Origin: Lachnospiraceae bacterium AB2028
Lineage (GTDB): Bacteria > Bacillota > Clostridia > Lachnospirales > Lachnospiraceae
DNA: 64,000 bases
Assembly (NCBI GenBank): GCA_000621425.1
Contig: KK211275.1
Coordinates: 784,523-848,522, forward strand
Direction: 5' to 3'
The notes below the pieces were generated by a model that was not told the origin of the DNA, searched no databases, and worked only from the letters and a program-made list of their open reading frames with translations. A program made the position numbers and the translations under genes. Positions within the stretch are counted from its first letter, which is position 1. Every line of letters begins with the position of its first letter. This document shows, piece by piece, positions 18,291 through 23,755 of this stretch.

Positions 18291-20906
18291 TTATTCTTTC
18301 TTGTCAGTCCCCGCTGAACCGCCCTGCGGAGGCTGATTCTCAGCTGGCTGATTCTCAGTCGGAGCCGCTGTCTGCGCAACCTGAGCATCTGCCGAAGGCG
18401 CCTCCGTTGCCTGCCCCTGGCTTTCCGCCGGATTTGAATCTGCCGGAGCTGACTGGGTTCCTGCATTGGCTGTTTCTGTCTGAACAGGAGTCTCCGTTGT
18501 AACTGATGCTGTCTCAGGCATTGCATTCTCCTGCGTGCCAGCTACATTATTCTGTACCTGCCCGTCCTGCCGGGTAACATTATCCTGCACATTAACTGCC
18601 TGAACACTGACCGGTCCGTTCTGCATCGACTGTGCATTCATCCCCCCCTGCATAGGCTGACCGTTCATACCACTCTGCATAGGCTGACCGTTCATTCCGT
18701 TCATTCCGCCCTGCATTGGCTGACCATATCCGCCTGGTCCTGCATTCAACCTAGCCTGTTCATACTGTGTCATGGCTGCCGCCGCGAGTTTTTTCTTCTT
18801 ACTGCCTTTTACAATGAGCACTATTATAACTATAAGAAGAATAAGTACGATCAGTCCGGCTCCTGCTAAAATGAATACAATTGCAACTATCAGACCTACA
18901 TTCTTTTCTATCGTATCCGGATCAAGGTCAGCATCCCCATCATCATAGTCATCCACACCATCGTCGTCATAGTCACCTTCGTCAACTAAATCATCATCTT
19001 CAGAATTATCATCAGGTTCGGTCGTATCATCATCTCCGCCGTTATCCATATCAGAATAGTCTTTGTGGCCCTGGAGTGGAAGTCCGAGAGACGCCCTTAC
19101 ATCATCAGCATAGAGATCAAATCTGGGATTTGCTATAGGGTTATTGAGACCTGCAGCAACAACAGTGGCCTGGAAGTCATCCTGGAATTCTCTGTCTACT
19201 AAATCCAGATATGTATCAATTGCCGCATCACGGTCAGTGCTTATGCCGTCATAAAGCTCATATACAGCTGCGGCAGATACAGAATAGCTTATGTAATACT
19301 CCGGCGACTGGAACGTATGTGGAATTTCAACCCACTCATAAACAGAATCAGGTTCAAGTACTCCATACATTCCTAAATAATAGCTATTATAATTCTCGGC
19401 ATCTCCGTATTCATTACATACCTCGTAGTACAACGCATTAAGGCTCTCTACAGTCAGTCCATCGGGATTCTCATATACCCTGTGCTGGAATTCATCTTCC
19501 TTGCAGCCGTCTACAGTCGCTCCTACAAGACCATAGTGAAGCATTGCTGTCATGACATCAGAATAATCCCCGAAAATATCATCATAATAGTCCACATAGA
19601 GCATTTCCAGGCCCTGGGAATGAATCTCTGCAAGGTCAAGGTTCTGTTTATTGTATTTCCAGGTTTCTGCCGACTGATAGTACATCTCATTATAATGACC
19701 AAACTCATGGATCATGGTCTTCATATCCATGGGAGATCCATCCGAGTCATTAAACATGAGCGGCGCGTTATACATCTGCACGCCGGTAGTAAAACCGTTC
19801 GGTGCTTTGTGTTCACTTACTGAAAAGTCACACAGATTATGGTCTACCATATAATTATATGAAACCATAAGGTCATTTGAGATTTCAGGAAGATGAGCCG
19901 CAAGATTATCAAGGCACTCCTGCTCCGTCATTGGTTCCTCCAGCATCTCAAAATAGCGGTCCAGCATATCATTACGGATCATTTGCAGTATCTCCTGGTT
20001 AAGGGGAACAAAGTAATCCTTTACCATCTGTCTGTAATTGTCCATATCATCATATGAGTAATCCCTCTGATAATTCTCTTCATAGGCATACTCATTGAAA
20101 CTGTTGTAGCCGTAGCTCTTAGCTAACTGATCACGGACTTCCACCATTTCAATGTAGAGTTCGGCCATATCCTTATTTTTGGCCTCTATGATTTCTCCAA
20201 GACCTAACAGATATTCAGAATAATCTACGTTGCCGTTCCCATAAGCTTCATCCAGACTATCCGCATCATACTTAACACCGTTAATTTCCGTCTCATATGC
20301 CTTAAGGCTTAAGTCATTATACTGCTGCACAAGTTCAGAATCTTTGTTCTTAAGGTCCTTCTGCTCCTGTGTCATGGGAACGTAGTCCAATATGTACTGC
20401 CACTCATGATCATCATGAATATAGTCCTTCAGCACATCGCTGCAGGCACTGTTTGCGATCATATAAAACTTGGTATAGTAAAGATCGGAAACATCATTGT
20501 ACAGCTCGGTATAGAACTGGTACTCCTCATCATAGTGATCATCGTCAACATACTGATATGAATAGAATTCGGCAAGACACCTGTCTTTTTCCATCTCCAG
20601 CCTGAAGTCATCCATTGCCAGTATGATATCAAGCACTTCATCACCATTGGCCGCATCCTGGCAGAGTTCGTCAAGGCCATCAATGATCTTGTCAAAATCT
20701 TTTGCATCGACTCTCTTATATTCATAATCCTCAAACTTAAGATCTGTATGAGTCGCACGGTCTGTGAGTACATTATCATGCAATCCTGCTGCAGAAGACG
20801 ACATTGTAAAAAAAGGCGTGAGGACAGTAGCTGACACAACTGCAGTCAAAGCTCCCCTAAAACACCTTATTACTGTTCTTTTTCTTTTTGAATAATGTTT
20901 TTTCAT
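18291..20906 (-). CDS. Membrane-anchored M3-like metallopeptidase with low-complexity tail
   Basis: Probable surface zinc peptidase related to oligoendopeptidase F (M3); the substrate is unknown. A basic N-terminus and hydrophobic stretch to about residue 40 form a signal peptide. The catalytic domain has HEFGH (His400, Glu401, His404) and, 23 residues on, LAEIHSQGLE, whose Glu427 is the likely third zinc ligand. Residues ~619-667 are very rich in Asp. A single transmembrane helix spans ~668-700, followed by KGSKKKK. The last ~165 residues are a Gln/Asn/Gly/Met- and then Ala/Thr/Pro-rich tail with NGQPMQ repeats. Positive-inside topology puts the peptidase outside and the tail inside. M3 enzymes are usually cytosolic and untailed. 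GAGGGAG precedes the ATG. Confidence 0.8.
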   Translation of the reverse strand: MKKHYSKRKRTVIRCFRGALTAVVSATVLTPFFTMSSSAAGLHDNVLTDRATHTDLKFEDYEYKRVDAKDFDKIIDGLDELCQDAANGDEVLDIILAMDDFRLEMEKDRCLAEFYSYQYVDDDHYDEEYQFYTELYNDVSDLYYTKFYMIANSACSDVLKDYIHDDHEWQYILDYVPMTQEQKDLKNKDSELVQQYNDLSLKAYETEINGVKYDADSLDEAYGNGNVDYSEYLLGLGEIIEAKNKDMAELYIEMVEVRDQLAKSYGYNSFNEYAYEENYQRDYSYDDMDNYRQMVKDYFVPLNQEILQMIRNDMLDRYFEMLEEPMTEQECLDNLAAHLPEISNDLMVSYNYMVDHNLCDFSVSEHKAPNGFTTGVQMYNAPLMFNDSDGSPMDMKTMIHEFGHYNEMYYQSAETWKYNKQNLDLAEIHSQGLEMLYVDYYDDIFGDYSDVMTAMLHYGLVGATVDGCKEDEFQHRVYENPDGLTVESLNALYYEVCNEYGDAENYNSYYLGMYGVLEPDSVYEWVEIPHTFQSPEYYISYSVSAAAVYELYDGISTDRDAAIDTYLDLVDREFQDDFQATVVAAGLNNPIANPRFDLYADDVRASLGLPLQGHKDYSDMDNGGDDDTTEPDDNSEDDDLVDEGDYDDDGVDDYDDGDADLDPDTIEKNVGLIVAIVFILAGAGLIVLILLIVIIVLIVKGSKKKKLAAAAMTQYEQARLNAGPGGYGQPMQGGMNGMNGQPMQSGMNGQPMQGGMNAQSMQNGPVSVQAVNVQDNVTRQDGQVQNNVAGTQENAMPETASVTTETPVQTETANAGTQSAPADSNPAESQGQATEAPSADAQVAQTAAPTENQPAENQPPQGGSAGTDKKE
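18648..18694 (-). repeat. Short tandem repeat in the peptidase tail
   Basis: Two near-identical copies of CTGCATAGGCTGACCGTTCA (18648 and 18674 onward), flanked by diverged copies, encode the NGQPMQ(G/S)GM repeats. Such in-frame repeats can change copy number by slippage without breaking the frame. Confidence 0.7.
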
Positions 20907-21015: not shown

Positions 21016-21174
21016 ACAAAATGTAACAAAAAAACGCCACAAAAATTGCTGTTTTGCCACAAATACACCATTGCTACATATTTTTCCTTGCTGTAAAATA
21101 CCCCAAAATATAATTATCAGATTAAAAACAACCGGCAGTACAGCTGACTATCCGGCTTTAGAAAGGAGCAGACC

Positions 21175-22320
21175 ATAAAAACCTGCGGAATAATAGCTGA
21201 ATACAATCCTTTTCATAACGGACATCACAGGCTCATTGAATATGCAAAAACAGAACTTGGCGCAGACCGTATTGTAGTGATAATGAGCGGGGACCATGTG
21301 CAGCGTGGAGAACCTGCCGTAATGGATAAATATGCCCGCACTGAAGCCGCACTAAAATCCGGTGCTGACCTTGTGCTGGAGCTTACCGTTCCCTTTGCCA
21401 CCGGCAGCGCCCAGTACTTTGCAAGGGGCTCCGTCTCTGCCCTGCTGAATACCGGAGTATGCGACATGCTGCTCTTCGGCTCGGAAACCGGAGACCTGGA
21501 TACATTAAAGCATCAGGCCGGTTCAGCCACTGACCTTGCGGAACTAACAGCCAATCCACCGCTGCCCAATGACATACTGGGACTGGAATACCTGAAAGCA
21601 CTTAACTACTTCAAAAATGAGTCAGTCACGCCTTATACATTAAAAAGAGACGGAGCCGGCCATGATGCACCCTCCCCCCTCGGCGATACTGCCAGCGCAT
21701 CCTACCTGCGGGGAGTACTTAGAAAAGATGACGAGTACGATACATACAAGTCGTTATCCGCTTATATGCCCCAGCCTGCATTTGATGTATGTGAGAAATA
21801 CTTTGTTGAACACAGGCCCGTGTCACCATCAGACTACTCCGACTTCCTTTTTTACACCCTTATGATGCAGAAGGAAAACGGCTATTCCGAATACTTTGAT
21901 GTATATGACAACCTGTCAGACAAGATATATAACAGCCTGCAGGATTACGATAATTTCCCCGGCTTTATTACAAGATTAAAATCAAAGGAAATCACCTACT
22001 CACATTTAAGCCGTGCCCTGCTGCATATACTCCTTGATATAAAAAAGAGCGAGGTATCGATACTTATTGAGAAATATTCCTACTGTCCTTATCTCCGTCC
22101 CTTAGGATTCAGAACGGATGTAAGCGACCTTCTAAAAGCAATAAAGAATAACTGTGACAGGCCGTTTATTTCAAAACTTGCAGATGCAGAAAGCATACTG
22201 GATGCCGACAGCCTTCATTCATTAAAAAAGGACATCCTGGCTTCGGAAATATATGCAAAGAACTCGCTGCGAAGCGGTACGCCAGTTTCAGAATACAGGC
22301 GTACAATTATAACGATCTAA
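21175..22320 (+). CDS. tmcAL: tRNA-Met cytidine acetate ligase, apparent AUA start
   Basis: TmcAL (YlbM) uses ATP and acetate to make N4-acetylcytidine at position 34 of elongator tRNA-Met. The nucleotidyltransferase motif HNGH lies in GIIAEYNPFHNGHH (residues 5-18), followed by MSGDHVQRGEPAV, both hallmarks. The homologous region begins at codon 21175, which is ATA. AGAAAGGAG lies 6 nt before it. An in-frame TGA at 21145-21147 is followed by no ATG, GTG or TTG before the motif. The next ATG (21277) would delete the active site. So either AUA is the start codon or the gene is damaged. From 21175 the product is 381 aa, normal for the family, and the rest of the frame is intact. Confidence 0.8.
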   Translation: MKTCGIIAEYNPFHNGHHRLIEYAKTELGADRIVVIMSGDHVQRGEPAVMDKYARTEAALKSGADLVLELTVPFATGSAQYFARGSVSALLNTGVCDMLLFGSETGDLDTLKHQAGSATDLAELTANPPLPNDILGLEYLKALNYFKNESVTPYTLKRDGAGHDAPSPLGDTASASYLRGVLRKDDEYDTYKSLSAYMPQPAFDVCEKYFVEHRPVSPSDYSDFLFYTLMMQKENGYSEYFDVYDNLSDKIYNSLQDYDNFPGFITRLKSKEITYSHLSRALLHILLDIKKSEVSILIEKYSYCPYLRPLGFRTDVSDLLKAIKNNCDRPFISKLADAESILDADSLHSLKKDILASEIYAKNSLRSGTPVSEYRRTIITI

Positions 22321-22390: not shown

Positions 22391-23755
22391 TTAGTTCTTA
22401 AAGCTATGTACCGGTGCAGGGATCCTGCCCTTCCTATTGATGAAATCGTCACAGCCAAAACTATTCACAGGCATTACAGGTGCATGTCCCAGAAGGCCTC
22501 CGAATTCCACATTGTCGCCAGGTTTCTTGCCCACCGCAGGTATTATCCTCACTGCAGTAGTCTTCTGGTTAATCATGCCGATTGCCATCTCATCGGCAAT
22601 TATTCCTGACAGAGTTGTCGCCTTTGTATCTCCCGGTACAGCTATCATATCCAAGCCTACCGAACATACACAGGTCATTGCCTCAAGCTTTTCAAGACTA
22701 AGAGCCCCTGCTTCCACCGCATTTATCATTCCCTGGTCCTCACTGACAGGAATGAAGGCACCGGACAGGCCACCCACATATGATGATGCCATTATGCCGC
22801 CCTTCTTGACCTGGTCATTAAGCAGTGCCAGAGCTGCCGTTGTTCCGGGGGCACCGGCATATTCAAGACCAATCTCGCATAGTATGTCAGCCACGCTGTC
22901 ACCGATCGCAGGCGTAGGTGCAAGGCTTAAGTCAATTATTCCGAAAGGAACGCCCAGCTTTTCAGAAGCTTCCTTTGCCACCAGCTGTCCGACTCTTGTT
23001 ATCTTAAATGCAGTCTTCTTTATCGTCTCGCACAATACTTCAAAGCTTTCTCCACGTACAGACTCAAGAGCTGTCTTTACAACACCCGGGCCGCTGACAC
23101 CAACATTAATAACCGCATCAGCTTCTGTTACACCATGGAAAGCACCTGCCATAAAAGGATTGTCATCAGGTGCATTACAGAATACCACCAGCTTTGCACA
23201 CCCTAATGAATCATTGTCTTTAGTATACTCAGCTGTCTGTTTGATTATCTCACCCATAAGACGCACTGCATCCATATTTATGCCTGTCTTTGTAGAACCC
23301 ACATTTATGGAGCTGCACACTCTATCTGTTGTGGCAAGAGCTTCCGGTATGGAACGGATAAGCAGCTCATCAGCCGCAGTCATCCCCTTTGAAACCAGTG
23401 CACTGTACCCGCCGATAAAATTAACGCCTACTTCTTTTGCGGCATCATCAAGGGTACGTGCGATCTTTACAAAATCCTTTGTTTCCTTACAGGAGGCACC
23501 GCCCACAAGTGCTATGGGGGTTACGGAAATACGCTTGTTTACGATAGGGATCGCATATTTCTTCTCTATCTCCTTGCCGGTCTTTACAAGGTCCTTTGCA
23601 ACGGTAGTGATCTTCTTATATATTTTGTCGCATACGACATCCACATCACCGTCGATACAGTCCAGAAGACTGATTCCCAGTGTTATGGTCCTGACATCGA
23701 GATTTTCCTTCTCGATCATCTTATTTGTTTCTATTACTTCGGATATGTTTATCAT
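22391..23755 (-). CDS. PFL-like UPF0210 (DUF711) protein
   Basis: Conserved cytosolic protein of 454 aa, distantly related to pyruvate formate-lyase/ribonucleotide reductase barrels but without the glycyl-radical motif; its reaction is unknown. Recognised from [30 protein letters not shown] and the long conserved body ([33 protein letters not shown]). The upstream neighbour is an ACT-domain UPF0237 gene, the partner it nearly always has, so the ACT protein may act as its ligand sensor. The 174-bp spacer is unusually long for this pair and contains palindromes. GAGG lies 11 nt before the ATG. Confidence 0.9.

Follow-up and report, generated by a model that had tools for sequence, protein, structure and literature searches.

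In Escherichia coli, infC starts at AUU. The closest described counterparts of the locus reported here are in Staphylococcus aureus, in which ribosome profiling mapped AUA starts for infC, ccpN, and citZ and an AUU start for cvfC1 (PMC13009471). The available sections of that report give reporter outputs of ≈10% of AUG for ccpN, citZ, and cvfC1 in poor medium, with ccpN rising to as much as 30% in rich medium, name IF3 as a modulator of AUA starts, and mention the autoregulation of infC in E. coli (PMC13009471). AUA also figures in what is described of TmcAL: the available sections of a second report state that the enzyme discriminates by nucleotides 32 and 38, that ac4C34 blocks the reading of AUA, and that AUA is generally rare in bacteria (PMC12514573). 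Here we describe a tmcAL gene that itself appears to start at AUA, in a 64,000-nucleotide stretch of DNA from Lachnospiraceae bacterium AB2028 (the window; genome G000). Our reading, to which we assign a probability of about 0.6, is that the AUA at 21175 is a true but weak start that limits the output of TmcAL and is possibly exposed to IF3 discrimination.

The predicted coding region runs from 21175 to 22320 on the plus strand of the window, with 381 codons from the ATA and a TAA stop at 22318–22320. Its proposed initiation codon, ATA at 21175–21177 (+), is assigned by its position, by the presence of ATA in relatives, and by a match to solved chains from residue 2. It lies downstream of the Shine-Dalgarno sequence AGAAAGGAG (21160–21168, +), with a spacer of 6 nt counted from the last base at 21168; the core of this sequence, AAGGAGCA, is common to three species. 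As read from the sequence, the frame is closed upstream by an in-frame TGA (21145–21147, +), which is followed by CTA TCC GGC TTT AGA AAG GAG CAG ACC and then the ATA. Read codon by codon between this TGA and a GTG at 21277–21279 (+), the first canonical in-frame codon, the frame holds no ATG, GTG, or TTG. After the ATA come AAA ACC TGC GGA ATA ATA GCT GAA TAC AAT CCT TTT CAT AAC GGA CAT, the last four of these codons encoding an HNGH motif at residues 14–17 counted from ATA in G000, G031, and G005. The preliminary description of this locus had placed the ATA, the Shine-Dalgarno sequence 6 nt before it, and the stretch devoid of canonical starts after the TGA exactly where we find them. It had also stated that the next ATG would remove the active site; that loss is real, but the next canonical codon is the GTG at 21277, and the next ATG lies at 21283. 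The program-made list of open reading frames gives this GTG as the only start of the gene (347 aa), and a start there cuts 34 residues, so that the HNGH motif is lost.

When genes are scored with heuristic starts, a Shine-Dalgarno match of at least 9 nt occurs in five of 246 G000 genes, tmcAL included. A candidate promoter, TTGCTA-17-TAAAAT, is located at 21071–21099 (+) by a consensus scan whose total number of hits is 5, against 3.9 (sd 1.9) in shuffles and thus not clearly above them; TGCTGTAAAATACCCC is common to the three species. The long open reading frames that adjoin tmcAL in the list, 18291–20906 and 22391–23755, which we take to be genes, are both on the opposite strand, and therefore no upstream gene is evident to which tmcAL could be coupled. 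By eye, the 871-aa product of the first of these frames (18291–20906, minus strand) has a signal-like N terminus, a membrane segment, a Gln/Pro-rich tail, and an HEFGH motif, which we take to be zinc-peptidase-like. At the tmcAL start itself, a four-pair hairpin (GCAG/CUGC, GCAG-loop-CTGC in the DNA, at 21168–21186) would place the ATA in the loop; it was rejected as an element for having too little covariation, with a single pair disrupted in one of the three species. A search for an RNA element returned one sub-threshold Rfam match only (E 0.7).

The identity of the gene, named as tmcAL in the preliminary description, is borne out. Its product reaches 342.3 bits against the Pfam family PF05636 (HIGH_NTase1), for which the cut-off is 27, carries the HxGH motif, and matches solved TmcAL chains (5y0p, E 4.2e-45; 5y0r, E 7.6e-40). 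These chains belong to the TmcAL structures 5y0n–5y0q and, from T. maritima, 5y0r–5y0t, and represent a homologous enzyme; the alignments start at residue 2 of the query, which pairs with residue 2 of the T. maritima chain, so the ATA at 21175 occupies the position expected for Met1. Compared with 5y0p, the product is shorter by ≈30 residues in the segment from query position 111 to 129. The NCBIfam equivalog PRK13670 (nucleotidyltransferase) scores 279.3 bits, below its cut-off of 360, and the assignment therefore rests on the Pfam family and the solved chains. On these sequence matches, the gene, present in one copy in G000, is tmcAL, and its product is predicted to acetylate C34 of elongator tRNA-Met.

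A tmcAL match is present in 34 of the 35 genomes of the genus, and the start region is readable in 33; G013 has a C-terminal piece only, and G020 (72% complete) has no match. Residue 1 is encoded by ATG in 23 of the 33 and by GTG in two, and four more have an ATG 3–6 codons upstream, which gives a canonical start in 29. The other four, G000, G031, G005, and G018, have ATA and no canonical in-frame start. Since 29 of the 33 genomes have a canonical start, weak initiation is not generally required, and the gene needs no loop through AUA. The ATA start is common to G000, G031, and G005, three separate assemblies; G031 and G005 are two other species of the genus, with 88–89% identity. An ATG at this position in relatives had been proposed as the observation that would speak against the AUA start; the two nearest species with a readable gene both have ATA. 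The same four genomes stand alone among 205 tmcAL loci as the only ones read without a canonical in-frame start. These loci comprise 30 from the genus, the best 80 of 583 confirmed loci on named contigs, and 95 from genera of the family, the 80-locus and 95-genera sets sharing some genomes; the 95 are drawn from the matches listed outside the genus that begin at query residue 5 or earlier, a match being present in 288 of 299 genomes. The motif located 178 of the first 190 loci, three of which are ATA without a canonical start, and the remaining 12, read by tblastn, yielded 11 canonical starts and one ATA (G018). All of the last 15 loci have canonical starts.

In G000, G031, and G005, the coding region has the same length, 1143 nt, and zero indels, and over 381 codons the pairwise dS is 0.95–1.31 and the dN/dS 0.05–0.07. 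On our reading, an AUA start can outlast large synonymous divergence. Between G000 and G005, A-to-G change affects 30% of two-fold sites and 17% of four-fold sites, and given these per-site frequencies the fact that the third base has stayed A argues only weakly for selection. Codons 2–11 (21178–21207, +) are the same nucleotides in all three species, for which the gene's own rate gives p ≈ 1.6e-4. At least 10 identical codons follow the start in 28 of 217 G000/G005 pairs, tmcAL included, a comparison with rough starts and two species only, and we accordingly give the frozen block of codons no weight as a special signal.

Upstream of the gene, the Shine-Dalgarno core AAGGAGCA and the block TGCTGTAAAATACCCC are common to all three species, and between them, just upstream of the Shine-Dalgarno sequence, are indels of 4 nt and 1 nt, which argue against coding there. 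No canonical start is found in any of the three frames leading into the ATA in G005 or G018, and frameshift entry from a canonical upstream start is therefore excluded in those two genomes. Frame +1 contains two TTGs in G000 and one GTG in G031, with the frames ending at a TAA that overlaps the ATA; G005 has no such start, so no upstream open reading frame is common to the three species. Upstream coding and frameshift entry are thus disfavored both by the indels and by the lack of canonical starts in three frames in G005 and G018.

To place tmcAL within its genome, we compared 400 kb of G000 with 400 kb of G005, a sample of 247 ortholog pairs that does not include infC. In 41 of these pairs, at least 10 aligned codons precede the first shared canonical start. 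In 19 of the 41, at least one species of the pair has a canonical codon either upstream of the alignment or less than 10 codons into it; the remaining 22, among them tmcAL, have their first canonical codon at least 10 codons into the alignment in both species. The longest such stretch among the 22 is that of tmcAL, at 38 codons, and only tmcAL combines a pN/pS below 0.4 in this stretch with more than four changes; for the other pairs, pN/pS is at least 0.42 or the changes are too few to judge. Nine of the 41 pairs, beside tmcAL, were read codon by codon, and a few short noncanonical cases among the 247 may exist. A second sample of 75 pairs, scored by a slightly different rule, flagged eight and added no case, as on reading these proved to be leader or Shine-Dalgarno translations, overlaps with upstream genes, or antisense frames. 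Across the 322 pairs (247 + 75), tmcAL is the one clear noncanonical start.

On a tmcAL tree with 33 rows, the ATA clade of three species (100/100) joins G001 and G017, both ATG, and G018 joins G023 and G010, both also ATG (95/81). The ATA label requires two changes on this tree, and an AU test rejects a single clade (p 8.3e-6). An SMC tree (30 of the 35 genomes, with G001, G004, G007, G014, and G021 absent, and SH-aLRT support only) also separates G018 from the three-species clade. On the SMC tree, the row closest to G000 is G020, and the tree gives two changes with G020 and G013 unlabeled and three if both are counted as not ATA. The ATA start was fixed before the three species diverged and arose again in the lineage of G018. 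In G018, where tmcAL is on the minus strand, the upstream gene ends with the TGA in TGAGGAAAGATC-ATA, and three codons only separate this TGA from the ATA, with ATC just before the ATA. The motif of this copy is HNAH in place of HNGH, the sole H-x-A-H among 195 motif matches, of which 193 are HxGH and one is H-x-T-H. The copy may thus be relaxed or decaying or encode an altered enzyme, and the support that G018 lends as a second case is therefore weaker.

Among the G000 tRNA genes read, three kinds have a CAU anticodon, which we take, by their general features, to be the initiator, a tRNA-Ile2-like species, and elongator tRNA-Met. The anticodon loop of the initiator tRNA-fMet is CUCAUAA (C32/A38) and that of the elongator is UUCAUAC (U32/C38). 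The initiator must read the AUA, and its loop differs at positions 32 and 38. TmcAL therefore lacks an obvious direct means of acting on its own start, and the same nucleotides speak against feedback by acetylation of the initiator tRNA. No tRNA with a UAU anticodon is seen among the genes read, a set that is incomplete, as tRNA-Ala and tRNA-Ile(GAU) are absent from it; their genes may have dropped out of the assembly together with collapsed rRNA operons. AUA makes up 44% of Ile codons in 246 G000 genes (3071/6935) and is the commonest Ile codon of the genome (3078, against 1828 AUU and 2040 AUC), and ac4C34 should therefore matter. The tmcAL gene is not notably enriched in AUA (13 of 22 Ile codons, rank 183 of 224). 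Codons 6–7 of the gene are AUA AUA in G000, G031, and G005 and ATC ATC in G018. A gene for tilS is present in the first three of these genomes, with ATG available as its start, and a TmcA backup was not found in four genomes.

Initiation at AUA, attenuation, and a dependence on IF3 are what we infer from a locus at which the position and conservation of the codon, the purifying selection on the gene, and the lack of alternative starts are directly observed. The initiator fMet-tRNA would read the AUA at 21175 as the true initiation codon of tmcAL, and the good Shine-Dalgarno helix would compensate for the weakness of the codon. TmcAL would then be produced at a small part of the rate that AUG would give, with an output dependent on how strictly IF3 rejects AUA. 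By analogy with the S. aureus AUA starts, the codon is expected to lower the expression of tmcAL and to make it sensitive to IF3. We regard attenuation as the best reading and simple tolerance as its main rival. On the latter, AUA is the true start and is merely tolerated, ATG having changed to ATA once per lineage while a good Shine-Dalgarno sequence maintained sufficient expression, with no selection on dose and no regulation. At 17–30% A-to-G per site, the A could plausibly have persisted neutrally in three species, the identity of the early codons is ordinary, and HNAH in G018 suggests a relaxed need there. Tolerance is harder to reconcile with a dS near 1, at which a one-step return to ATG was open on several branches and is seen on none, with a Shine-Dalgarno core kept in three species, and with the standing of tmcAL as the sole clear case in 247 pairs; we consider it possible but on balance unlikely.

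A more elaborate proposal would tie the start to the function of the enzyme. A drop in ac4C34 would let AUA be misread, which would disturb decoding or the stringency of initiation and lead to more initiation at the tmcAL AUA. The prevalence of AUA among Ile codons in G000, the AUA AUA at codons 6–7 in the three-species clade, and the unseen TmcA backup are in its favor. The C32/A38 loop of the initiator against U32/C38 in the elongator, the ordinary AUA content of tmcAL, the ATC ATC of G018, and the 29 of 33 readable genomes that manage without AUA weigh against it, and such feedback seems decidedly improbable. A homeostatic loop in which an AUA start gained twice links a loss of AUG/AUA fidelity to raised tmcAL initiation through IF3 stringency, not through direct binding, likewise appears improbable. 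The preliminary description had suggested that the rare start limits the enzyme or that TmcAL autoregulates: limitation is plausible in light of the ccpN and citZ reporters, and autoregulation by TmcAL is unsupported, given the initiator loop and the canonical starts of most of the genus. That translation begins elsewhere, at the GTG at 21277, as in the list of open reading frames, or farther upstream, by way of a frameshift or an unrecognized start, is very unlikely: the 34 codons before that GTG are conserved and encode the HxGH motif, indels and stops occur upstream of the ATA, and G018 leaves three codons only between TGA and ATA. A base error or a recent inactivating lesion in the strain, also raised in the preliminary description, is refuted for the three-species clade and has a negligible probability, as we found no support for it and the same ATA recurs in G031 and G005 in separate assemblies under purifying selection.

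A precedent in gene type is infC, which serves the fidelity of translation and begins at an AUN codon, as tmcAL appears to do. We found infC in seven of eight genomes of the genus and then in four of five; in all 11 genomes read, an ATT follows a G-rich Shine-Dalgarno sequence (GGAGG or AGGGGG) at a conserved position. A GTG, TTG, or ATG overlaps that Shine-Dalgarno sequence five codons upstream in six of the 11, and a TTG lies four codons downstream of the ATT in every one. ATT is likely the infC start in the genus, and the precedent is clearest only in G023 and G009, in which a TAA lies just upstream of the ATT. For IF3-type control of tmcAL, the infC ATT in the genus is circumstantial support only. 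IF3 acts directly on start selection, whereas the substrate of TmcAL is an elongator tRNA, and the enzyme is not known to act in initiation. No paper on IF3 autoregulation was found in our literature search, and none on tmcAL start codons in the literature searched by title and the start of the abstract, with subscription papers mostly outside that search.

In the S. aureus genes infC, ccpN, and cvfC1, an extended Shine-Dalgarno sequence is combined with a noncanonical AUN start, as in tmcAL, and the ccpN start is conserved between S. aureus and B. subtilis, much as the tmcAL ATA is common to species (PMC13009471). The available sections of that report mention no tmcAL among the AUN-start cases, and the weaker output of ccpN, citZ, and cvfC1 relative to AUG was established there with reporters (PMC13009471), whereas tmcAL is known here from its sequence. 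The features of a conserved AUA start are present at this locus: AUA at the Met1 position, a Shine-Dalgarno sequence at normal spacing, no canonical in-frame start, and occurrence in several species. A gene caller limited to ATG, GTG, and TTG would truncate tmcAL, with loss of the active site, and such starts may therefore be undercounted. If the AUA start does tune TmcAL, start-codon stringency would be linked to the fidelity of AUG/AUA decoding. Conserved AUA starts are already known elsewhere, as described in the available sections of the S. aureus report (PMC13009471), and to these tmcAL, as read from its sequence, adds a translation-fidelity enzyme.
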